Positions 46,214 through 60,298 of a stretch of DNA of 64,000 bases are shown one piece after another. The notes under the pieces are model-generated. The model worked only from the letters and a program-made list of their open reading frames with translations, ran no database searches and was not told the origin of the DNA. The stretch covers positions 124,001-188,000 of the forward strand of contig NZ_FWFK01000003.1 in the NCBI RefSeq assembly GCF_900172265.1. The letters run 5' to 3'. A program made the position numbers and the translations under genes. The stretch is from Roseivivax jejudonensis (GTDB lineage: Bacteria; Pseudomonadota; Alphaproteobacteria; Rhodobacterales; Rhodobacteraceae). Every line of letters starts with the position of its first letter. The first letter of the stretch is position 1.

Positions 46214-47548
46214 TCAGGTCGCGCGCTCCGACTCCCCGGCCGCCCCGGTGTCGTCGTCCGCCGCCGCCGCCGCCTCCTCGGCCTCCTCGGCCGCGCGCTC
46301 TTCGGCCGCTTCCTCGGCGCGGTCGGCGGCCCATTCGCCGGCCGCCTCGACCGCCACGGGCGACGCGGTCGGCACCACGCCGAGATAGCTCTCGGTGTCG
46401 CTCGCCGGCGCGCTCATGCGCTGCGTCATCCGGTAGAGCGCATAAAGCGCCATCGCCGCGAAGGTCGCCCCGAGCGTCATCCAGAACCCGCCCGGCCCCG
46501 CCGCCTGCATCGCGTAGCCGGTCAGGAGCGGCCCGGCGATCGCCCCGAGCCCGAAGGTGAACACGAGCCCGCCCGAGGCCGCCGGCATGTCCTCGGAGGA
46601 CAGGAAATCGTTGGTATAGGCCAGAAGCAGCGCGTAGAGCGGCGTCGTCACGCCCCCCGCGAGGAACGCCGCCGCCATCAGCGGCACGAGCGCGTCGCCG
46701 GTCAGCCAGCCGAGCCCGCAGGCCACGCCGCCCAGCACCGCCGCCCCGAAGATCAGCTTGCGCCGGTCGAGCCGGTCGGACAGCCAGCCGATCGGGTATT
46801 GCAGCACGAGCGCCCCGGCGAACAGCATCGCGACGAAAAGCGCGATCTCGTCCGCCGTCATCCCGATCTGCGTGCCGAACACGGCGCCCATGCCCGATTG
46901 CGTGGCGTAGACGCTGCCCAGCAGGAAGATCCCGATCGTGCCGAGGGGCGAGCTGACGAAGAGCTGGCCGAGCGACATCGGCCGCGTCACCTCCACCGAC
47001 GGCGTGCGTCCCGCCGACAGCAGGATCGGCGCGAACGACACCGACACGAGAATCGACGCCCCGATGAACAGCACCGACGTGGCCGCGTCGCCCAGCGTCA
47101 GAAGCCCCTGCGCCCCGATGATCCCCAGGGTCTGCGCGAGCATGTAGGCCGACAGCACCTTGCCGCGCGTCTCGTTGGTCGAGGCGTCGTTGAGCCAGCT
47201 CTCCGCGGCGACGTAGACGCCCGACATGCAGAACCCGAGCAGCACCCGCAGGAGCGTCCACGCCCACGGCTCGGTCAGCAGCGGCAGCGAGATCAGCCCC
47301 GCCGACATGAAGCTGCCGAGCGCCGCGAACACCCGCACGTGACCCACCCGGCGAATCATCCGCGGCGTCAGCCGCGCGCCCGACAGGAAGCCCAGGAAGT
47401 AACCGGAGGTGACGACGGCGAGCTCGCCCGCCGAGAAGCCCTCGATCCCGCCGCGCAGACCGATCAGCGTGAAGTGCATGCCGTTGCCCAGCATGATGAG
47501 CACGATGCCGAGAAGAAGCGCCCAGACGCCGGACAGGACCTGAAACAC
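46214..47548 (-). CDS. MFS transporter (YcaD-type) with acidic tail
   Basis: A 444-residue major facilitator with 12 predicted helices and the N-terminal signature VLSGVWALLLGIVLIMLGNG. A GTG start is favoured because TGGAGG lies six bases upstream on the same strand and the residues match YcaD-like proteins; longer open frame upstream is compositional. The last 50 residues are Ala/Glu-rich (AEEAAEERAAEEAEEAAAAA) and probably disordered in the cytoplasm. The substrate is unknown. Confidence 0.85.
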   Translation of the reverse strand: MFQVLSGVWALLLGIVLIMLGNGMHFTLIGLRGGIEGFSAGELAVVTSGYFLGFLSGARLTPRMIRRVGHVRVFAALGSFMSAGLISLPLLTEPWAWTLLRVLLGFCMSGVYVAAESWLNDASTNETRGKVLSAYMLAQTLGIIGAQGLLTLGDAATSVLFIGASILVSVSFAPILLSAGRTPSVEVTRPMSLGQLFVSSPLGTIGIFLLGSVYATQSGMGAVFGTQIGMTADEIALFVAMLFAGALVLQYPIGWLSDRLDRRKLIFGAAVLGGVACGLGWLTGDALVPLMAAAFLAGGVTTPLYALLLAYTNDFLSSEDMPAASGGLVFTFGLGAIAGPLLTGYAMQAAGPGGFWMTLGATFAAMALYALYRMTQRMSAPASDTESYLGVVPTASPVAVEAAGEWAADRAEEAAEERAAEEAEEAAAAADDDTGAAGESERAT

Positions 47549-47750
47549 CGCACGCCTCCACGTCACTGCCGGACGACGCCGTGCCGCGCCGCCGGACCAT
47601 GCCACAGGGCCGCACAATGGCGGTCATGGCGCGTGCGTCAAGCGCACCGGCCGTCGCACCCCCGGCGCGGCGGGCGCGGCGCGGGGATGTGCCGCGGTGC
47701 TGCACATCCCCGCGCCAGACGGCGCCGCCCCGACACGGAAACCCGGCACG

Positions 47751-47812: not shown

Positions 47813-50059
47813 TCAGTTCGAAGCGGTCAGGAGCGGGGTGATCCGGCGCACCGCCGCCCGGCGGTTTGCGCGCTCGGACTCCTCGGTCCGCACCAGAAGG
47901 TCGGATTCGCCGTAGCCCTGCACGACCATGTTCTCGGTCGGCACGTCGAAGTACTCGCTGAGCGCCAGCGCCACCGATTCCGCCCGGCGGTCCGACAGCG
48001 CGAGGTTCATCGAGGCCGAGCCGGTCGCGTCGGTGTGGCCCTCGATCAGGAAGACTTCGCCCGGGCGCTCGTCGATGATGTCGCGCATCGCGTTGCCCAG
48101 CGCCGACAGCGCCTCGGCCTCCTCGGGCCGGATGACGGCCGAGCCGGTCTCGAAGTTGATCGTGTCGACGTTGATCTCGGGCACCTGCTTGCGCACCTCG
48201 GCGATGTTGCGCACCTGGTTGAGCGAGAACGACCGGTCGAGCTGGACGCCGGCATTGGCCAGCGCGGTCGCGAGCGCCTGTTCGTCGTCCTGCTGGTACT
48301 CGATCACCTGGCGTTGGTCCGACACCCGCGGCAGCTCGCTCACGCTCACCTCCTGGAAGGACCGCGTGTCGTCGAACAGGACCACCTGGTCGCCGCCCGG
48401 CAGGTTGCGCACGCGGCGCAGGACGCGGCCGTCGGCGGCACGCACCGTCTCGATCTCGGTGCCGTCCTCGCGGATGACGACCGAACGGGTGGAACCGTCG
48501 TCGTAGCGGTAGGTGGTGACGTTCGAGCCCGGCTGGCGCAGCAGCGCGTCGTCGTTGCGCAGCACGCGGTACTGTCCGTCACGCTCGACGACGATCCGGT
48601 CGCCGGTGTCGGTCACGACCCGTTCGTTCGGGCGCAGCAACTGCTGCACCGCGACGGTGCCCAACGCGCCGAGCGCGGCACCGCCGAGGATCGAGCGCAG
48701 GCGCTCGGCCTCCTCGCCGTCGTCCTCGTCATCGTCGTCATCGCGCCGTGCCCGCTCGACATCCTCGCCGACCTCGGTGGCGAATTCCTCGTTGGAGCTG
48801 CGCGCGGTCTCCTCGGTCACGGTCTCCTCGACCACCTCGGCGTCGCCGTCACCGCCCTGAACCGCGGCAGCGCTCTGCGCGGCGCGATCTTCCTCGGCGA
48901 TCGCCTCGGCATCGGCGGCCGCCTGCTCCTCGGTGCGCTCGGGCGCCTCGCCCTCGGTCTCGGCGGTCGTTTCGGTGTCCGACTCGGCCTCGGTATCCGC
49001 ACCGGGGGTCTCGGCGGTGTCGCCGCCCTCGGTGCCGGTCTCGGCCTCGGTCTCGGCGGTCGCATCCGCATCCGCGCCGCCCTGCTCGGCTTCCAGCGCC
49101 TCGCGCAGGGACTCCTCGTCGGTGCGGCCGTCCTCGGGCGCGTCCTCGGCCGTCTCGGGGGCCTCCTCGGTCTCGGCCGGCGCCTCCTCGGCGGTCTCCG
49201 GTGCCTCCTCGGTCGCCTCCGGCGCCTCCTCGGCGGTGTCGGGCGCCTCCTCGGTCGCCTCCGGCGCCTCCTCGGCGGTCTCGGGCGCCTCCTCGGTCAC
49301 CGCGGGCGCGTCCTCGGCGGCCTGCGGCACCTCTTCGGCCTCGGGAGCCGCCTCTTCCGCGAGCGGCGCGTCGGGCGTGCCGGTTTCGGAGTCGGCCGCC
49401 TCGGCCTCTTCGGCGGTCTCGTTCTGCTGCTGTTCCAGCGCCTCGCGCAGCTGGTCGGCGCCGTCCGGCGCCGCCTCGCCCTCGGCCTCGGTCTCGACCT
49501 GAGGCGTCGCCGGCGCGTCCTCGGCGGTTTCGGGGGCCGCCTGAGTTTCCGGCTCTGCCGGCGCCTCGGCCTGTGCCGGCGCCTCGGTCTCGGCGGGCGC
49601 TTCGGCTGGCGCCGCGTTCTCGGCGGCCGGCGTGTCGGCAGGCGCAGCGTCCTGCGCTGCTTCGGCAGGCGCAGCGTCCTGCGCTGCGGCGGCAGGCGCA
49701 TCGCTCGCCTCGGGCGCGGCCTCGACCGCTTCGGGTTCGGCCGCGGCGGCGGGCGCCTCTGGCGCGTCCTCTTGTGCGGAGGCGGCAGGCGCATCCCCGG
49801 CGTCGTCGGAAGCACCGGCCGGGGTGCCGCCGTCGGCAGCCTCACCGCCCTCGGCCGGGGTGCCGCCCTCGGCCGGTTCGGCGGCGGGGGCCTCGGCCGC
49901 GTCGTCCTGTTGCTGTTCTTCCTGCTGGCGGCGCAGCAGCTCCTCTTCCGTCTCCGCCGCGCCGTTGCCCTCGGCATCCTGCGCGAGGATCGGGGCGGGG
50001 GCGGACAGGCTCAGCACGAGGGCGAGCGCGGTGGTGGTCTTCAGGATGCCTGACGTCAT
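47813..50059 (-). CDS. OmpA-family protein with long acidic repeat region
   Basis: A 748-residue exported protein: signal peptide (MTSGILKTTTALALVLSLSA), about 400 residues of Ala/Glu/Pro/Thr-rich low-complexity sequence including eight heptads of the type EAPETAE, a middle domain with RYDDGSTRSVVIREDGTEIE, and a C-terminal OmpA peptidoglycan-binding domain (INFETGSAVIRPEEAEALSA, IEGHTDATGSASMNLALSDR). The Asp and Arg that bind diaminopimelate are in the latter. GGAAGGA precedes the ATG. The protein could anchor to peptidoglycan while its extended region spans the periplasm or outer surface. Confidence 0.88.
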   Translation of the reverse strand: MTSGILKTTTALALVLSLSAPAPILAQDAEGNGAAETEEELLRRQQEEQQQDDAAEAPAAEPAEGGTPAEGGEAADGGTPAGASDDAGDAPAASAQEDAPEAPAAAAEPEAVEAAPEASDAPAAAAQDAAPAEAAQDAAPADTPAAENAAPAEAPAETEAPAQAEAPAEPETQAAPETAEDAPATPQVETEAEGEAAPDGADQLREALEQQQNETAEEAEAADSETGTPDAPLAEEAAPEAEEVPQAAEDAPAVTEEAPETAEEAPEATEEAPDTAEEAPEATEEAPETAEEAPAETEEAPETAEDAPEDGRTDEESLREALEAEQGGADADATAETEAETGTEGGDTAETPGADTEAESDTETTAETEGEAPERTEEQAAADAEAIAEEDRAAQSAAAVQGGDGDAEVVEETVTEETARSSNEEFATEVGEDVERARRDDDDDEDDGEEAERLRSILGGAALGALGTVAVQQLLRPNERVVTDTGDRIVVERDGQYRVLRNDDALLRQPGSNVTTYRYDDGSTRSVVIREDGTEIETVRAADGRVLRRVRNLPGGDQVVLFDDTRSFQEVSVSELPRVSDQRQVIEYQQDDEQALATALANAGVQLDRSFSLNQVRNIAEVRKQVPEINVDTINFETGSAVIRPEEAEALSALGNAMRDIIDERPGEVFLIEGHTDATGSASMNLALSDRRAESVALALSEYFDVPTENMVVQGYGESDLLVRTEESERANRRAAVRRITPLLTASN

Positions 50060-51521: not shown

Positions 51522-52427
51522 TCACGAGGCGAGCCGCTGGCGGGCCTCGTCGAGCAGGCGCTTGGCCTCCGAGCCCTGCAGTTTCTGGATGTCGTCCTGG
51601 TATTTTAGGATCGCGCCGAGCGTGTCGGAGATCACCTCGGGCGAGAGGTCCATGACGTCGAGCGCGAGCAGGCACTTGGCCCAGTCGATCGTCTCGGCGA
51701 CGCCGGGGCGCTTGAAGATGTCCTCGGTCCGCAGGCGCTGGACGAAGGCCACGACCTCGCGCGAGAGCGTCTCGGACGCCTCGGGGGCGCGCGCGGCGAG
51801 GATCTCGATCTCGCGCGCGAAGGTCGGGTAGTCCACCCAGTGGTAGAGGCAGCGCCGCTTGAGCGCGTCGTGCACCTCGCGGGTGCGGTTCGAGGTCAGG
51901 ATCACGATCGGCGGTTCGGGGGCGACGATGGGGCCGAGTTCGGGGATCGTCACCTGGAAGTCCGACAGCGCCTCGAGCAGGAACGCCTCGAAGGGTTCGT
52001 CGGTGCGGTCGAGCTCGTCGATCAGGAGCACCGGAGCGCCGCCGGGCTGGGGCCGCATCGCCTCGAGCAGCGGACGCTCGATCAGGTAGTCCTCGGAGAA
52101 GAGCTCGGCGCGCAGCGCCTGGCGGTCGGCGCCGCCGGCGGCCTCGGCGGTGCGGATCGCCACCATCTGCGCGGCGAAGTTCCACTCGTAGACCGCGGAG
52201 GCCGCGTCGAGCCCCTCGTAGCATTGCAGCCGGATCAGCCGGCGGCCCAGCGACTGCGCCAGCGCCTTGGCGATCTCGGTCTTGCCGACGCCGGCCTCGC
52301 CCTCGAGAAAGAGCGGCCGGCCGAGCCGGAGCGCGAGAAACACGACCGTGGCCAGCGACCGGCCGCAGACATAGCCCGCCTCGCCCAGCCGTGCCTGCAC
52401 CGCGTCGATGGATGTGACCTCGCTCAT
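51522..52427 (-). CDS. MoxR-type AAA+ ATPase
   Basis: A 301-residue ATPase with Walker A GEAGVGKT (43-50), Walker B VLLIDELDR, sensor 1 ILTSNRTREVHDALKRR and an arginine-rich end to the AAA+ module. It belongs to the MoxR group related to CoxD, which partners VWA proteins to assemble or activate enzyme complexes. The downstream VWA gene is its probable partner. A client enzyme is not visible nearby. Confidence 0.9.
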   Translation of the reverse strand: MSEVTSIDAVQARLGEAGYVCGRSLATVVFLALRLGRPLFLEGEAGVGKTEIAKALAQSLGRRLIRLQCYEGLDAASAVYEWNFAAQMVAIRTAEAAGGADRQALRAELFSEDYLIERPLLEAMRPQPGGAPVLLIDELDRTDEPFEAFLLEALSDFQVTIPELGPIVAPEPPIVILTSNRTREVHDALKRRCLYHWVDYPTFAREIEILAARAPEASETLSREVVAFVQRLRTEDIFKRPGVAETIDWAKCLLALDVMDLSPEVISDTLGAILKYQDDIQKLQGSEAKRLLDEARQRLAS

Positions 52428-52510
52428 GCGCTCCTCCCGTCTGGCCGTCCCCGTTGCTCGCGCGCGATCCGGGACGGGTCAAGTGGGCTTAGGTCGCACG
52501 CGCGGGCCAC

Positions 52511-52747
52511 GACGTCGCCGGCGCGGGGCGGGGACGTCGCCGGCGCGGGGCGGGACGGCAGCGCCACGCCACCGTGGCGGGACCACAGCGCCACGCCGCA
52601 GCCGTGGCGGGACGGCAGCGCCACGAGGCCGTGGCGGGACTGCAGCGCCACGCCGCAGCCGTGGCCGGGCGGCAGCGCCACGCCACCGTGGCGGGACCAA
52701 AGCGCCCCGCCGCGGCCGTGGCCGGGCGGCAGCGCCCCGCGCCCGGG
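52511..52747. repeat. GC-rich minisatellite upstream of glycan genes
   Basis: This lies in a 466-base gap between the divergent MoxR and GT2 genes that holds no credible gene. Two 22-base units (GACGTCGCCGGCGCGGGG...) begin at 52511 and 52533. Then units starting GTGGCGGGAC or GTGGCCGGGC alternate 30 and 27 bases, at 52574, 52604, 52631, 52661, 52688 and 52718, giving a 57-base higher-order period. All unit lengths except 22 are multiples of three, so frames across it stay open. The rest of the gap is unremarkable. Confidence 0.9.
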
Positions 52748-52893: not shown

Positions 52894-53922
52894 ATGCGCG
52901 TGACCGCCGTCACATGCGTCAAGAACGAGGGACCGTTCCTGCTGGAATGGATCGCCTGGAACCGGCTGATCGGGGTGACCGACCACCTGATCTATTCCAA
53001 CGATTGCGACGACGGCACCGACACGCTGCTCGATGCGCTCGCCGCCGCCGGGCTGGTGGCGCACCACGCCAACCCCGCGCGCGGGCGCGCCTATCAGATG
53101 GAGGCGCTCAAGGACGCGCGCCGCCACCGGATCGTGCGGCGCGCCGACTGGCTGTGGATCGCCGACGTGGACGAGTTCCTCAACATCCGCGCCGGCGCGG
53201 GCGACATCGCGTCGCTGGTCGCCGCCTGCGGCGATCCGCACGCGATCTCGGTGAGCTTCCAGTTCTTCGCCAATGGCGGGGTGGAGCGCTTCGTCGACGC
53301 GCCGGTGATCGGCCAGTTCGACCGCTCGCACAATCCCGACATCTGGTGCGGCGACACCGCGATCGAGGTCAAGAGCCTGGTGCGCGCGGATTTCCCCTTC
53401 GGCTACCTGGGCGCGCACCGCCCGTTCCACGACCCCGACGGACCGGCCGACCGCTCCCTGGTCTGGACCGACGGGTCGGGCCGCAAGGTGCCGCGCGCCT
53501 TCCGCCGGCACGCGCGCAAGCGGCGCATCCGCGCCTTCCCGGCGCAGGGTGCGCGCGTGCACGCGACGCTCAACCACTACGCGCTGCGCTCGCTCGAGAG
53601 CTACCTCGTCAAGACCGACCGCGGCGACGTCAACCGCGAGAACCGCGCCTTCGACGACACCTACTGGCGCGAGCGCAACGACGCGGCCTGGACCGACCGG
53701 TCGATCCAGGCGCGGCTGCCGGCGCTCGAGGCGGCGATCGCCGAGCTGAAGGCGCTGCCCGACGTGGCGCGGCTGCACGATGCGGCCGTGGCCGCGCACC
53801 GCGCCAAGGCGGCACGGCTGATGGCGGCCCCGGCGGGCCGCGCGATGGCCGAGGCGCTGCGCCGCGCCGACCCGCTGCCGCCGGCGGAGGCCGCGCTGCG
53901 CGCCGAGCTGGAGGGGCCATGA
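52894..53922 (+). CDS. Family 2 glycosyltransferase (Glyco_tranf_2_4 type)
   Basis: A 342-residue GT-A enzyme with N-terminal VTAVTCVKNEGPFLLEWIAW, the DxD metal motif in IADVDEFLN (D91, D93), and NHYALRSLESYLVKTDRGDV toward the C-terminus. It is the first of three related GT2 modules in this operon. No transmembrane segment is seen. The ATG shares its last bases with no upstream gene; the 3' end overlaps the next gene as ATGA. Confidence 0.88.
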   Translation: MRVTAVTCVKNEGPFLLEWIAWNRLIGVTDHLIYSNDCDDGTDTLLDALAAAGLVAHHANPARGRAYQMEALKDARRHRIVRRADWLWIADVDEFLNIRAGAGDIASLVAACGDPHAISVSFQFFANGGVERFVDAPVIGQFDRSHNPDIWCGDTAIEVKSLVRADFPFGYLGAHRPFHDPDGPADRSLVWTDGSGRKVPRAFRRHARKRRIRAFPAQGARVHATLNHYALRSLESYLVKTDRGDVNRENRAFDDTYWRERNDAAWTDRSIQARLPALEAAIAELKALPDVARLHDAAVAAHRAKAARLMAAPAGRAMAEALRRADPLPPAEAALRAELEGP

Positions 53923-54566
53923 TCCTCAATCTCGGCCTGCCCAAGACCGGCACGACCACGCTGTCGCACGCGCTGCGCAGCGCCGGGCTGCGCACCGCCG
54001 ACTGGAAGCTCCGGCCGGCGCAGACCGACGATCCGGACCTGCGCGACGTCTTCGTGGGCGAGATCCTCTACGGCGACTATTTCGCGCATGGGGATCCGCT
54101 GCGGCGGCTGTCGGGGTTCGACGCGATCACCGAGATGAACGCGCTCGGTCCGCACGGCAATTACTGGCCGCAGACCGACTGGGCGCTGCTCGACGCGATC
54201 CGCACGCGGCACCCGGACACCCTGTTCGTGCTGTCGCGGCGCGACCCGGCCAGCGCGGCCGACAGCATGATGCGCTGGCGCTCGCTCGGCACCCGCCGCA
54301 TGCCGCGCCACACCGTACCGGGGCTGCCGAAGGGCTGGGGCGGCACCACCGCCGAGCTCGCGCGGTGGGTCGACGGGCACCAGCGCTTCTGCGACGCGAT
54401 CTTCGCGGGCTCGGACCGCTATCTCGCCTACGACATCGAGGATCCCGAAGCGCCGCAGCGGATCGCGGCGTTCATCGGCCGGCCCCTGCCGTGGTGGGGC
54501 GTTGCGAACGCCAACCCGGCGCCGGACGCGGCCGTGGCGTCGGATGCGCCGAGCGACGGGGACTGA
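53919..54566 (+). CDS. Sulfotransferase
   Basis: A 215-residue PAPS-dependent sulfotransferase-like protein. The P-loop-type sulfate motif is at the very start, MILNLGLPKTGTTTLSHAL, and VLSRRDPASAADSMMRWRSL supplies the 3'-phosphate site. It overlaps the upstream GT2 gene by ATGA and the next gene begins one base after its stop, so all are coupled. Confidence 0.88.
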   Translation: MILNLGLPKTGTTTLSHALRSAGLRTADWKLRPAQTDDPDLRDVFVGEILYGDYFAHGDPLRRLSGFDAITEMNALGPHGNYWPQTDWALLDAIRTRHPDTLFVLSRRDPASAADSMMRWRSLGTRRMPRHTVPGLPKGWGGTTAELARWVDGHQRFCDAIFAGSDRYLAYDIEDPEAPQRIAAFIGRPLPWWGVANANPAPDAAVASDAPSDGD

Positions 54567-54567
54567 G

Positions 54568-56910
54568 ATGCGCGTTCACCTGTTCATCGGCCCCTCGGAG
54601 CGCGCGATCGCGCGGCTGCGCGCGGTGGCCAGGGACTGTGCCCAGCCGCTGCGCCGCGCCGGCGTCGCGCTGCCCGACTGGAACCCGATCCGCCTCTACC
54701 TCGGCTGCTCGGACCCCGAGCGTACCGGCGTGCTGCGCTTCGCCCGCGGGTATCGCAGCGCCGGGGCGCAGGCGCGGCTTCTGGCCGAACTCACGGGCGA
54801 GATCGACGCGCTCCGCGCCAGCGGCGCCGACGCCGTCCTGATCGCCTCGGCGCATCTTGGCCGGCTCCTGCCCGGCCGCGAGGAACTGGAGCGGGTGCGC
54901 ACGCTGCTGTCGCGACTGGGCGACGACATCCGTGTCACCGCGCACGTGGAGGAGCAGGCCCGCCACCTCGCCCGGCTCTATCCCGACCGGGTGGCCGAGG
55001 GACGCATCACCCCGCTCGGGCGGGAGCTGGCGCTGGCGCGCTCGGGGGCGCCGTGGTGGGAGGGCGCGCTCGGGTCGCTGCCGGACGGGCGGCCCTACCT
55101 GGGGCACCACCCGCTGCTCGACGGGGCGCCGCACTGGCTCGACTACGCCGCGCTGCTCGCGCAGTGGGAAGAGGTGTTCGGCACCGGCGCGGTGACCCTC
55201 GCGCCGCTCGATCCCGACCGCCTCTTCGGACCAGAGGCGCCCGCCGTCCTGTCCGGGGCGCTGGGGCTCGACGCGGATCTCGGACGGGCCGATCCGGCGC
55301 GCATGCCGGAGACACCGGGCGCGGCCACGACCACGCGGCTGCGGCGCTTCAACGAGGTGCTTCTCGCGTACCAGGCACGCCGCGGGCTGCACGTGCCGCG
55401 CGACCTGCGCCGGCGCATGGCCGGGCAGATGGCGGTGGCGGGCCCGCCGATCGCGGCCGGCAGCCTGTCGCCCGTGTCCGGGCGGTTCGCCGAGATGAAC
55501 GCGGCGCTCGCCGCGCGTTTTCCCGCGCTCGCCGGTCACCTCGACCCCGATCCGCCCGCGCCGGACTGGACCGAGGCGGATCCGCTCTTCGGGTTCCGCG
55601 CGACGCAGTACCTCACCGCCTTCCGCTCGCAGATCGATCGCAACGCCCAGCCGATCGCCGAGATGAAGGCCGCCGACCGGGCCGAGGACGACGCGCTCGC
55701 CGCCGCCCGCGCTCCCGCGACGGCCGATCCGGACCGGTCCAATCCGGCGTTGCCGCCGCTCGCGCAGCTCAACCTGGCCAAGATCGCGGGCTCGCCTTAC
55801 GCGCCGCACAACCGCCTCGGCTCGGTCAACGAGGAAGAGCTGGCGGCCGCCTTTCCCGAGCGGGCGCCGCGGCCCCTGCCCGCGGGCTCTTCGGGCCGGG
55901 TCATCGTCGGCTGCATGAAGAACGAGGCGCCCTACATCGTCGAGTGGGTCGCCTATCACCGCGCGATCGGGGTCGACCGGTTCCTGATCTACACCAACGG
56001 CTGCACCGACGGGACCGACGCGATCCTGCAACGGCTCGATGCGCTGGGCGTCGTCGAACACCGCGACAACGACGACTGGAAAGGCAACTCGCCCCAGCAG
56101 CACGCGCTCAACAGCGCGCTGAAAGAGCCGGTCATCCGCGACGCCGAGTGGATCCTGCACATCGACGTGGACGAGTTCGTCAACGTGCGCTGCGGCGACG
56201 GCACGCTCGACGCCTTCCTCGATCGCGTGCCCGACGCCACCAACGTCGCGATGACGTGGCGGCTCTTCGGCCACAACGGCGTCACCCGGCTCGAGGACCG
56301 CTTCGTGATCGATCAGTTCGACAGCTGCGCCCCGCGCTTCTGCCCCAAGCCGCACACGGTCTGGGGCTACAAGACGATGTTCCGCAACATCGGCGCCTAC
56401 GCCAAGATCTCGTGCCACCGCCCGAACAAGCTCGATCCCGCGCTCGAGGACCGCGTGCGCTGGGTCAACGGCTCGGGCGAGGACATCACCCGCCATGCCG
56501 CGCGCAACGGCTGGCGCTCGTCGAAGGCGTCGATCGGCTACGACCTGATCCAGCTCAACCACTACGCGCTGCGCTCGGCCGAGAGCTTTCTGATCAAGCG
56601 CCAGCGCGGGCGCGCCCTGCATGTGGACCGGTCCATCGGCCTGAATTACTGGATCCGCATGGACTGGTCGGGCAACCGCGACATCACCATCAAGCGCAAC
56701 CTGCCGCGCCTGCGCGCCGAGTACGACCGCCTCATGGCCGACCCCGAGCTCGCGCGGCTCCATGCCGAGGGGCTCGCCTGGCACCGCGCCAAGGCCGACG
56801 AGCTGCACGCGATGCCCGAGTTCGAGGAGCTCTACCAGCAGGCGCTCGCGCTCGAGCTGACCGAGACCGAGCGCGTGGCCTACGCGCTCGCCCTCGATAT
56901 GGAGAGCTGA
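54568..56910 (+). CDS. Two-domain protein: degenerate sulfotransferase-like domain plus GT2
   Basis: A 780-residue protein. Residues 1-330 look like the sulfotransferase group that opens with an IGPxKTGTT loop, but here the loop reads LFIGPSERAIARLRAVARDC, without the lysine and threonines needed for PAPS. A later DYAALLAQWEEVFGTG agrees with that group. After a linker, residues about 442-780 form a GT2 domain (VIVGCMKNEAPYIVEWVAYH, DxD at D533/D535 in HIDVDEFVNV). The N-terminal domain may bind an acceptor rather than catalyse. It is the third gene of the operon. Confidence 0.78.
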   Translation: MRVHLFIGPSERAIARLRAVARDCAQPLRRAGVALPDWNPIRLYLGCSDPERTGVLRFARGYRSAGAQARLLAELTGEIDALRASGADAVLIASAHLGRLLPGREELERVRTLLSRLGDDIRVTAHVEEQARHLARLYPDRVAEGRITPLGRELALARSGAPWWEGALGSLPDGRPYLGHHPLLDGAPHWLDYAALLAQWEEVFGTGAVTLAPLDPDRLFGPEAPAVLSGALGLDADLGRADPARMPETPGAATTTRLRRFNEVLLAYQARRGLHVPRDLRRRMAGQMAVAGPPIAAGSLSPVSGRFAEMNAALAARFPALAGHLDPDPPAPDWTEADPLFGFRATQYLTAFRSQIDRNAQPIAEMKAADRAEDDALAAARAPATADPDRSNPALPPLAQLNLAKIAGSPYAPHNRLGSVNEEELAAAFPERAPRPLPAGSSGRVIVGCMKNEAPYIVEWVAYHRAIGVDRFLIYTNGCTDGTDAILQRLDALGVVEHRDNDDWKGNSPQQHALNSALKEPVIRDAEWILHIDVDEFVNVRCGDGTLDAFLDRVPDATNVAMTWRLFGHNGVTRLEDRFVIDQFDSCAPRFCPKPHTVWGYKTMFRNIGAYAKISCHRPNKLDPALEDRVRWVNGSGEDITRHAARNGWRSSKASIGYDLIQLNHYALRSAESFLIKRQRGRALHVDRSIGLNYWIRMDWSGNRDITIKRNLPRLRAEYDRLMADPELARLHAEGLAWHRAKADELHAMPEFEELYQQALALELTETERVAYALALDMES

Positions 56911-56918
56911 GAGCGCCC

Positions 56919-57989
56919 ATGGCGGAGCCGCCGCGCATCCTCGCCATTCTCTGCGTGCGCAACGAGGGCGCGTTCCTGCTCGACTGGATCGCCCATCACC
57001 TCGCCTGCGGCGTCAGCCACGTGCTCGCGTACTCGAATGCCTGCGACGACGGCACCGACGCGATGCTCGACGCGCTCGCCCGGCAGGGCCGCGTCACCCA
57101 TGTGCGCAACGACGGCCCGCACGACTCGCAGGGCATCCAGTTCACCGCGCTGAACCATGCCGCAGGCACCGACGCCGTCGCCGGCGCCGACTGGATCCTT
57201 GCGCTCGACATCGACGAGTTCGTCAACGTCCATGTCGGCGACCGCACCTTGCCCGCGCTTCTGGACGCGCTGCCCGACGCGGACGCGATCACGCTCACCT
57301 GGCGGCTCTTCGGCAATGCCGGCGCGGCGCGGTTCGAGGACGTGCCGGTGCCCCGGCGCTTCACCGCCGCCGCGCCCGAGATCCTGCACTGGCCGTGGCG
57401 CGCGTCGATGTTCAAGACGCTCTACCGCAACGACGGCACCTACCGGAAACCGGGCGTGCACCGCCCGCGCCGCCCCGATCCCGCCCGGGTCGACGCCGCG
57501 CGCTGGGCCGACGGGCACGGCCGCACCCTCGGGCCCGCGTTCCGGCGCGGGCGCATCTTCTCGGATTTCGGCCGCCCGAATTTCGGCCTCGCGCAACTCA
57601 ACCATTACCCGCTCGGCGACGCCGAGAGCTTCGTGCTCAAGTCCGATCGCGGCCGCGCGGTGCACGACGCCGACCGCCTCGGCCTCGATTACTGGACCGA
57701 GCGCAACTTTTGCGCCGTCCGCGACGACAGCATCCTGGCGCTCGCGCCGCGGGTCGACGCGATCCGCGCGGAGCTTGCCGCGGCCCCCGATCTCGCGGCG
57801 CTGCACGCGGCCGCCGTCGCATGGCGCCGCACCCGCTTCGACGCGCTGATGGACCACGAGGAGATGCGCGCGCTTTACGGCCGATTGCTCATGTCGCAGC
57901 CCAGTATTCCCCTCTCGCGCGAAGCCGCTGCGCCGCTTCTCGCGCATGCGCTGCGCGCGCGCCGCTTGCATCGTTCGGACACCTCCTAA
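56919..57989 (+). CDS. Family 2 glycosyltransferase (Glyco_tranf_2_4 type)
   Basis: A 356-residue GT-A enzyme paralogous to the two preceding GT2 modules: ILAILCVRNEGAFLLDWIAH, metal motif LALDIDEFVN (D97, D99) and LNHYPLGDAESFVLKSDRGR. It starts nine bases after the previous stop and ends the coupled four-gene group. The Cys/His content is low and there is no membrane anchor. Confidence 0.86.
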   Translation: MAEPPRILAILCVRNEGAFLLDWIAHHLACGVSHVLAYSNACDDGTDAMLDALARQGRVTHVRNDGPHDSQGIQFTALNHAAGTDAVAGADWILALDIDEFVNVHVGDRTLPALLDALPDADAITLTWRLFGNAGAARFEDVPVPRRFTAAAPEILHWPWRASMFKTLYRNDGTYRKPGVHRPRRPDPARVDAARWADGHGRTLGPAFRRGRIFSDFGRPNFGLAQLNHYPLGDAESFVLKSDRGRAVHDADRLGLDYWTERNFCAVRDDSILALAPRVDAIRAELAAAPDLAALHAAAVAWRRTRFDALMDHEEMRALYGRLLMSQPSIPLSREAAAPLLAHALRARRLHRSDTS

Positions 57990-58090
57990 ATACCAAGACG
58001 GAGGCGCATTTTTGCCCGAAACCGGCGCCATGTTCACCAACCGAAAAGGCGCCCATCCGACCATCCCGGGCGCAAGCAAGGACGAGTGAA

Positions 58091-59119
58091 ATGCAGGACT
58101 CCGCGCCCGATCCCGACAGCGCGCCAGAGCCGCGGCAAACGCCCGACTACCCCGAGTGGCGCACCGCGATGAAGGCCCGCGCCGAGGAGGCGGGATTCTT
58201 CGAACCGCTCGGCCCCGACCATCACGCCCATTTCCTCGAAACCGACGGCGACGCGCTGCTGGTCACGTTCGAAAGCCACCCGGCGATCAGCATGCTGTCG
58301 CCCGACGACCGCCCGCTGGGCGAGGCGGTGGCCGAGGCGCATGGCTGGTCGCACCTCGCCGTGATCGCGCGCGGCGACACGTGGTTCCGGGAGGGGCGGG
58401 TCTACGGCTTCTTCGATCAGCTCAACGACGACGGATTCTTCGACGAGTTCGAAACGATCCTGTTCTACGGCGCCGGCCCCTGCGGCTATGCCGCCTGCGC
58501 ATTCTCGGTCTCCGCGCCCGGCGCACGCGTCCTTGCGCTGCAGCCGCAGGCCACGCTCGATCCGCGCATCACCGAATGGGACGACCGCTTCGTCGGCATG
58601 CGCCGGCGCTCCTTCACCGATCGCTACGGTTTTGCCCCCGACATGCTCGACGCGGCGCAGGCGGCGTGGATCGTCTACGACCCGCGCGAGCCGCTGGACG
58701 CGATGCACGCCGCGCTCTTCGCGCGCCGCAACGTGACCCGCTTCCGCCTGCCCTCGATGGGCAACGCGCTGCAGGCGGACCTTCTGGGGCTCGACATCCA
58801 CGACCCGCTCATGGCCGCGGCGATGGACGGCACGCTCGACACCGAAACCTTCGCGCGCCTGGCACGCCGGCGGCGCGACTACGTGCCCTACCTGCGCCGC
58901 CTGCTCTCGCGGCTCGAAGCCGACGAACGGCTCGACCTCGTGCGCCTGCTGTGCCGCAACGTGACCGGCCGGATGCGCGCGCCGCGCTTCCGGCGGCGTC
59001 TCAAGGCGCTCGAGGCTGCCGACGCGACGGGCGCCACCGCCGACACGGCATCGGACGGGGCCCCCGACAGCGACGATCCCTCCGACAACGCCGAACCGCG
59101 CCGCGCGACCGGCCTCTAG
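58091..59119 (+). CDS. Rhodobacteraceae-specific protein often labelled PAPS reductase
   Basis: A 342-residue cytoplasmic protein. Its core FYGAGPCGYAACAFSVSAPG (residues 125-144) aligns by eye with the nucleophile elbow of certain alpha/beta hydrolases (G-S-S-M-G-G-Y-A), but the nucleophile serine position is glycine. The CysH active-site ECGIH and the PAPS loop of true reductases are absent, so that label looks wrong. Other stable blocks are TEWDDRFVGMRRRSFTDRYG and VPYLRRLLSRLE. It follows the glycan operon by 101 bases and may or may not belong to it. Function unknown. Confidence 0.7.
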   Translation: MQDSAPDPDSAPEPRQTPDYPEWRTAMKARAEEAGFFEPLGPDHHAHFLETDGDALLVTFESHPAISMLSPDDRPLGEAVAEAHGWSHLAVIARGDTWFREGRVYGFFDQLNDDGFFDEFETILFYGAGPCGYAACAFSVSAPGARVLALQPQATLDPRITEWDDRFVGMRRRSFTDRYGFAPDMLDAAQAAWIVYDPREPLDAMHAALFARRNVTRFRLPSMGNALQADLLGLDIHDPLMAAAMDGTLDTETFARLARRRRDYVPYLRRLLSRLEADERLDLVRLLCRNVTGRMRAPRFRRRLKALEAADATGATADTASDGAPDSDDPSDNAEPRRATGL

Positions 59120-59257: not shown

Positions 59258-60298
59258 ATGACCACGCGCCTGACCCTCCGCCGGCCCGACGACTGGCACC
59301 TGCATCTGCGCGACGGCGCCATGCTGCGCGCCGTCCTGCCGGAAAGCGCGCGCCACTTCGCGCGCGCCATCATCATGCCGAACCTCGTGCCCCCGGTGGT
59401 GACGGCCGACGACGCGGCCGCCTACCGCGACCGCATCCGGGCCGCCCTGCCCGAGGACGCGGATTTCACGCCGCTGATGACCCTCTACCTGACCGAAGAG
59501 TCCGACCCCGAGGATGTCGCGCGCGCTGCCGAAACCGGCCTCGTGACCGCGGTCAAGCTCTACCCGGCGGGCGCCACCACCAATTCCGCCTCTGGCGTGC
59601 GCGACATGGATCGCGTGCGCCCGGTGCTCGAACGCATGGCCGCGATCGGCCTGCCGCTCTGCGTGCACGGCGAAGTCACCGATCCCGAGGTCGACATCTT
59701 TGACCGCGAGGCCGTGTTCATCGACCGCGTTCTCGATCCGCTGCGTCGCGCGGTGCCCGGCCTGCGCGTGGTGATGGAGCACCTGACCACGTCCGACGGC
59801 GTCGACTATGTCCGCGAGGGCGGCGAGGATCTCGGCGCGACGATCACGACGCACCACCTCGTCATCAACCGCAACCACCTGCTCGTGGGCGGCATCCGGC
59901 CGCATTACTATTGCCTGCCGGTGGCCAAGCGCGAACGCCACCGGCTCGCGCTGCGCGCCGCTGCGACCTCGGGCGCCGGGCGGTTCTTTCTGGGCACCGA
60001 CAGCGCGCCCCATCCCGACCACGCCAAGGAGACCGCCTGCGGCTGCGCCGGCTGCTTCACCGCGACGAACACCCTGTCGATTCTCGCCGAGGTATTCGAG
60101 GCCGAGGGCGCCCTCGACCGGCTGGAAGCCTTCACCTCCCTGAACGGACCGGACTTCTACCGGCTGCCGCGCAACACCGGGACGATCGCGCTCGAAAAGG
60201 GCGACGCCGTGGAGTATCCGGCGGCGATCCAGGCCGGCGACGATCGGGTCACCGTGTTCGATCCGGGCATGCCGGTGCACTGGCGCGTGGTATCCTGA
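59258..60298 (+). CDS. pyrC: Dihydroorotase (class II)
   Basis: A 346-residue enzyme of pyrimidine synthesis cyclising carbamoyl-aspartate. Zinc ligands are in [13 protein letters not shown] (H14, H16), the carbamylated lysine is K100 in [10 protein letters not shown], and LGTDSAPHP holds the catalytic aspartate. The length and motifs fit the E. coli-type class. It precedes pyrE by 88 bases that contain a repeated GTACGA motif. Confidence 0.96.

Follow-up and report, generated by a model that had tools for sequence, protein, structure and literature searches.

In a 64,000-nucleotide stretch of the Roseivivax jejudonensis genome (contig NZ_FWFK01000003.1, positions 124,001 to 188,000 of the forward strand; hereafter the window, in whose own numbering all coordinates are given), five genes that we call A, ST, B, C and D lie co-directionally on the + strand from 52894 to 59119. 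They form a conserved roseobacter cassette between moxR/coxE and the presumed pyrC gene which is present or absent largely as a unit. We consider it reasonably probable, at about 60%, that in the cytoplasm the products of this cassette assemble a short envelope glycan, sulfated and often also methylated; in this pathway the N-terminal domain of gene B, here termed BN, would bind the acceptor and the product of gene D would be non-catalytic. The feature that sets the cassette apart is BN itself: This domain resembles sulfotransferases but no longer has the motifs by which they usually bind 3'-phosphoadenosine-5'-phosphosulfate (PAPS). The individual parts are of known kinds; what is new is their fixed combination and the retired sulfotransferase on a glycosyltransferase.

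A sulfotransferase-like domain on a glycosyltransferase

Gene B (54568..56910, +) encodes 780 aa, in which a pseudo-sulfotransferase domain is fused to a predicted glycosyltransferase. BN comprises the ~390 N-terminal residues (54568..55740). By sequence it belongs to no Pfam or NCBIfam family and has no relative in the PDB, and a comparison of 50 BN members with Pfam gave only scattered weak matches (best E 0.025). A structure predicted from 50 sequences (predicted local distance difference test, pLDDT, 96.1; predicted template-modelling score, pTM, 0.91) revealed its fold: Foldseek against the PDB returned a single match at E <= 0.001, the bacterial sulfotransferase 3rnl (E 4.3e-4), followed by 3-OST and NDST enzymes, with P-loop nucleoside triphosphatases mixed in from rank 6. 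Alignment with VIA-align placed 3rnl (Z 14.6, root-mean-square deviation 4.0, 234 aligned positions), 3-OST-3 (Z 14.5) and NDST1 (Z 14.3) well ahead of the first non-sulfotransferase entry, which reached only Z 8.7; overall, BN shares the fold of these carbohydrate sulfotransferases at Z 13.1-14.6. The BN profile also matches open frames of 339-450 aa at other loci, which are stand-alone sulfotransferases, and hhalign related BN to nine of them with prob 99.84 and E 2e-30.

These stand-alone relatives keep both PAPS-contact motifs, including the loop lysine in 9/9 (HIGxxK), whereas both are gone in BN. Over 81 rows the aligned loop stretch of BN reads mostly LHIG-x7-R; at the aligned column of the 5'-phosphosulfate-binding (PSB) loop lysine occurs in 0/81, and column 16 is arginine in 81/81. 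The arginines of the second motif, LRRQ, are likewise replaced, with Asp or Glu at column 128 in 72/81 rows and at column 129 in 73/81. The arginines that are invariant over 50 rows (R16, R42, R60, R146, R257, R259, R278 and R344) would suit an anionic ligand or partner; further invariant residues in these rows are N39, G61, Y138, D192, W200 and N262. So many invariant positions, together with the very confidently predicted fold, exceed what a mere spacer would need, and it is conceivable that BN still catalyses a reaction, with another donor or another chemistry, which would make B bifunctional. We regard this as unlikely, given that both PAPS-contact motifs have been lost and that BN is the fastest-evolving part of the cassette: Mean pairwise identity amounts to 79% for the glycosyltransferase half of B, 72% for A, 66% for C, 57% for D, 50% for ST and 45% for BN.

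The sulfotransferase of the operon itself is encoded by gene ST (53919..54566, +, 215 aa), whose product matches PF17784 (Sulfotransfer_4) with 32.7 bits at a cut-off of 22.8. The residues that we take to form its 5'-phosphosulfate loop and its 3'-phosphate Arg/Ser motif are nearly invariant: The PSB-loop lysine K9 is kept in 74/76 rows, the remaining two lacking this end of the protein, R108 in 75/76 and S116 in 74/76. The genome also encodes an adenosine 5'-phosphosulfate (APS) kinase for PAPS supply. ST is thus a predicted PAPS-type sulfotransferase with intact motifs, which differs from BN in keeping both PAPS contacts and in its branch. The idea that BN arose as a copy of ST found no support, as hhalign gave a prob of only 0.7 for this pair; because BN has no detectable closeness to ST, it appears to stem from another sulfotransferase branch.

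A comparable fusion is known from the vertebrate dermatan sulfate epimerase 2 (Dsel/DS-epi2), a glycan-modifying enzyme, in which a sulfotransferase-like domain of unproven activity accompanies an epimerase and has a reported short PAPS signature (PMC5784981, PMC4920151). In B, by contrast, a glycosyltransferase takes the place of the epimerase, and the signature has disappeared. Elsewhere in the R. jejudonensis genome (locus L172 3339-15985, C9:556000-572000) lies a gene for a 1273-aa protein in which a GT2 domain is joined to Capsule_synth; a putative sulfotransferase part with a KTGTT loop is suggested by the sequence and by a weak match to the BN profile. Downstream follow a stand-alone sulfotransferase and also type I secretion and RTX-like genes, the secretion and RTX-like genes being named by sequence likeness only.

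Composition, conservation and distribution of the cassette

The first four genes are tightly packed. A and ST overlap by 4 nt (ATGA), and the gaps between ST and B and between B and C measure 1 and 8 nt, so that an earlier reading made from the sequence alone was right to describe four genes at 52894-57989 that overlap or nearly touch. That reading ended the operon with C and passed over BN and the behaviour of the genes as a cassette; gene D (58091..59119, +) follows after 101 nt and belongs with the unit. In a 19-residue hydropathy scan the maximum mean over the A, ST, B, C and D proteins was 1.44, and because no stretch exceeds this value all five look soluble and cytoplasmic.

Conservation of this arrangement was assessed by a genome-collection scan with 19 aligned B proteins (alignment A2, in which two of the 21 single-frame B orthologues are omitted: L062 for a frame break and L080 for an over-long start). 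The scan yielded 319 relatives, with R. sediminis (73%) and R. isoporae (69%) as the closest matches of gene B; the best 80 loci were kept, L110 and L111 among them being one contig counted twice. Within this selected set A is present in 77 loci, ST in 75, B in 80, C in 78 and D in 73, and in 55 a methyltransferase gene, missing in the window, is inserted between B and C. Those genes that are present always follow one order, A-ST-B-(methyltransferase)-C-D, so that chance does not account for the arrangement. On the left side moxR was seen in 70 loci, on the right side pyrC in 72. Some loci end early, and one shows a second moxR match after C. Overlaps of A with ST (55/72 loci) and of ST with B (58/75) are common. 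The methyltransferase is weakly FkbM-like: One member matches PF05050 below and PF02475 just above the cut-off, another PF02475 below it. A single gene order without C occurs in the set; C is missing, with A, ST, B and D kept, in L057 (genome G006) and in L092 (R. sediminis). In L062 (G017) a frame break splits gene B and pyrC is split too, which may reflect sequencing errors.

The genes also co-occur across genomes. In a set of 101 genomes, the same 21 carry both A and the N-terminal part of B; ST is found in 20/21 of these carriers and in 1/80 of the others (Fisher 6.5e-19). Of 248 family genomes, taken one per genus and each scored for its 7 or 13 best first-look candidates alone, 65 have BN, 63 ST, 60 both and 180 neither (p 1.3e-47, uncorrected for phylogeny). 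Among the 60 genomes with both, 55 have ST immediately in front of BN; in one of the others, G412, BN and ST lie on separate contigs, with BN at a contig end. In four genomes (G013, G049, G052 and, by coordinates only, G480) ST is located away from the cassette; it is thus retained together with the cassette even without linkage. The relocated ST of G052 lies near a gene for a class A penicillin-binding protein, and that of G013 adjoins an amidase gene and seemingly the same penicillin-binding protein gene. In G049 (L182 378-7249) YjbH, YjbF and Wza-type export genes lie ~2 kb away from it, possibly hinting at a route for export. Three genomes of the 248 have ST only; in one of them, G460, only 580 nt separate ST from the end of its contig, which may stop short of BN.

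Genomes lacking the cassette offer the complementary view. A query for moxR in eight genomes that had no B match at 1e-20, or had one of a weaker kind, gave a match at 1e-80 in 6/8. Four genomes lacking A and BN were inspected: In G008, which belongs to the same genus, and in G059 moxR and pyrC are less than 200 nt apart; in G014 D alone stands between them, and in G009 the neighbour is a gene other than pyrC. A class-wide sample with five candidates scored per genome showed BN in 2/337 genomes, both of the same family, and 0/72,556 plasmid records contained a match covering 80% of B.

This constancy bears on two other explanations of the cassette. Glycosyltransferase, sulfotransferase and methyltransferase genes are usual in capsule loci, and in Cobetia marina KMM 1449 the cluster for a sulfated capsule likewise holds glycosyltransferase and sulfotransferase genes together; the cassette could hence be a fragment of a capsule or exopolysaccharide locus of the ordinary kind that varies between strains. 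The Cobetia cluster comprises ~70 genes with ABC export, a lipid carrier and PAPS synthesis (PMC11766843), whereas the cassette has five or six genes and none for export, carrier or PAPS synthesis. Since, moreover, no export, polymerase, carrier or sugar-nucleotide genes were found among the genes scanned, and content, order and place of the cassette are fixed over many genera where capsule loci vary, we judge a capsule fragment to be quite improbable. Alternatively, the target of glycosylation and sulfation might be a protein, such as a secreted protein or one of the flagellum, rather than a lipid-linked or lipopolysaccharide glycan. A unit of five cytoplasmic-looking proteins without lipid carrier or export gene would fit such a target, but the gene orders show no acceptor protein gene travelling with the cassette, and we think a protein target unlikely.

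The borders are formed by a MoxR-type AAA ATPase gene on the left (51522..52427, -) and an amidohydrolase-family gene on the right (59258..60298, +; 138 nt after D), both outside the pathway. The left-flank genes, all on the - strand, encode the MoxR-type ATPase, a VWA/CoxE protein, an OmpA-family protein (47813-50059) and, beyond these, an MFS protein (46214-47617); the right flank continues from the amidohydrolase with a phosphoribosyltransferase, DnaB and alanine racemase, where the names pyrC, for the amidohydrolase gene, and pyrE are our assumption. In the OmpA-family protein a long acidic region of low complexity, made up of repeated units rich in Glu, Ala and Pro, precedes the OmpA domain. 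The gap between moxR and gene A measures 466 nt in the window, whereas 70 related loci have a median of 229 nt; it contains GC-rich tandem repeats (52493-52742) with periods of 21-22, then 30/57 nt. A scan with a defence-system library returned no match.

The glycosyltransferase modules and gene D

The cassette contains three predicted glycosyltransferase modules: gene A (52894..53922, +, 342 aa), the C-terminal half of B (55876..56910, +) and gene C (56919..57989, +, 356 aa). All three match PF13704 far above its curated cut-off of 27.5 bits (A 72, B 86.5, C 78.4 bits) and, more weakly, PF01697/GT92, and they share 34-42% pairwise identity over ~340 aa. Like other PF13704/GT92-like glycosyltransferases they keep the DxDE motif: In A it reads DxDEF, with D91 and D93 in 78/78 rows, in the B module H-[IV]-D-V-D-E-F, with D533/D535 and the glutamate in 81/81 rows, and in C the residues D97, D99 and E100 are kept in 77/77 rows. 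B differs from such enzymes in its pseudo-sulfotransferase N-terminus. The label GT2 derives only from how Pfam names PF13704; of the 19 matches that the classic GT2 model PF00535 gives across the genome, none falls in the cassette genes. Three related modules and a sulfotransferase, as the sequence-only reading had it, are therefore borne out by PF13704 and PF17784 matches above the cut-offs. Its forecast of a sulfated multi-sugar glycan likewise seems a fair prediction, in view of the packed operon, the related glycosyltransferases, the ST motifs and the APS kinase.

The same reading attributed the pathway to local duplication. The modules stand side by side and belong to one family, as would be expected if a GT2 gene had been duplicated in this lineage. 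A phylogeny of 71 of 93 domains (left out were 8 A, 7 B and 7 C additional orthologues) places all modules in one homologous family rather than in unrelated clades, and A, B1 and C1 each form one clade across many genera (support 100/100, 100/100 and 100/99). Because each module is its own clade across genera, any duplication must be ancient; the recent form is refuted by the tree, a duplication in this genome is unsupported, and the creation of the pathway by such an event is highly improbable. The first module duplications may nevertheless have taken place at this locus. B1 is sister to 11/12 rows of B2 (95/86), which has the same glycosyltransferase and another N-terminal domain, and C1 groups with 6/7 C copies from other locus types. 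Relatives from outside the cluster fall between the modules, partly on weak long branches, about which the program warned and because of which the deepest branching order is unsure. Nine further places in the same genome match PF13704; of those compared with the module profile (L009, L010, L014-L020) none reached 200 bits, compared with 490-550 for the three modules. A possible link to the receptor glycosyltransferases of the Rhodobacter capsulatus gene-transfer agent was dropped when a literature search gave nothing usable.

The N-terminal domain of B2, ~380 aa long and unlike BN, was seen in L060, L063, L064, L067, L075, L079 and others. The one member scanned matches 0 Pfam families; the domain may be a degenerate glycosyltransferase, as it shows co-linear motifs with such enzymes, but the hhalign match is weak (prob 2.1, E 0.023). 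Phaeobacter and Paracoccus plasmids contain genes that resemble B2 in size and match range, and in roseobacter plasmid records homologues of the glycosyltransferase half of B are annotated 'glycosyltransferase family 2 protein'.

Sequence comparison assigned gene D to no Pfam or NCBIfam family and found no relative of it in the PDB, with only scattered weak Pfam matches among 50 members (best E 0.0037). The structure predicted from 50 sequences (pLDDT 89.5) displays an alpha/beta-hydrolase fold, matching 329 PDB chains at E <= 0.001 with a best Z of 13.6. The usual serine nucleophile at the strand-helix elbow is absent: In the window the elbow reads GAGPCGYAA, and Gly129, located between strand 122-128 and helix 130-141, occupies the expected nucleophile position, as judged from this placement without superposition, in 73/73 rows. 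As to a catalytic His, which would be expected to follow the last strand, columns 223-228 contain 0 His in 73 rows, and column 222 has His in 12/73. Among the best structural matches are the Gap123 complex 6oyc (Z 13.6), the capsule O-acetyltransferase 6yuo (12.8) and MPT51 1r88 (12.7), where Z differences under 1 count as ties and hundreds of esterases score close; D shares 8-12% identity with these three and differs in the glycine at the nucleophile position. MPT51 is non-catalytic.

The proposed pathway and its significance

From computed gene content, gene order, co-occurrence, folds and motif loss we infer sulfation, an envelope glycan as product, the sequence in which the steps occur and what BN and D do. 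A, B and C would add sugars one after another in the cytoplasm, and ST would move sulfate from PAPS to the growing chain, which in many relatives would also be methylated by the enzyme encoded between B and C. BN most likely acts as an acceptor-binding domain, a reader or docking site that presents the chain to the transferase of B, and D is probably a non-catalytic partner with an alpha/beta-hydrolase fold. Other loci would then carry the short, conserved glycan to the envelope. A more specific role, in which BN reads the sulfated or to-be-sulfated acceptor and makes sugar addition by B depend on ST as a quality control, is a tentative extension that we hold to be possible, though on balance improbable.

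Several points weigh against this pathway. In 7/81 BN rows a lysine lies one position past the aligned PSB column, and BN varies fast, far more than the glycosyltransferase half to which it is fused; BN may have an unrecognised activity of its own. Five of the 65 BN genomes (G035, G401, G452, G554 and G560) have no ST at E <= 1e-40, so that BN does not seem to need ST strictly, and the co-occurrence counts lack a correction for phylogeny. In D, Cys131, two residues past Gly129, is kept in 66/73 rows, and D may therefore have an unusual activity; given the gaps of 101 and 138 nt on its two sides, it is also possibly transcribed apart. No flippase, polymerase or exporter gene was found among A-D and eight flanking genes (the MFS protein was not tested for this), nor was a priming transferase or nucleotide-sugar gene found in the cassette and the flanking genes scanned.

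The titles and abstract beginnings listed by searches of open-access literature contained no description of this cassette. BN occurs in about a quarter of the sampled genera of a marine family (65/248), and in the BN loci inspected the cassette occupies one chromosomal place, its homologues being annotated only as 'glycosyltransferase family 2'. The cassette thereby provides a small, testable system for bacterial glycan sulfation. It also gives a defined example of how a sulfotransferase was converted into a glycosyltransferase-borne domain that apparently has no catalytic role. Natural pairs with and without the cassette exist within one genus, on which roles in attachment, phage reception and algal contact could be studied.

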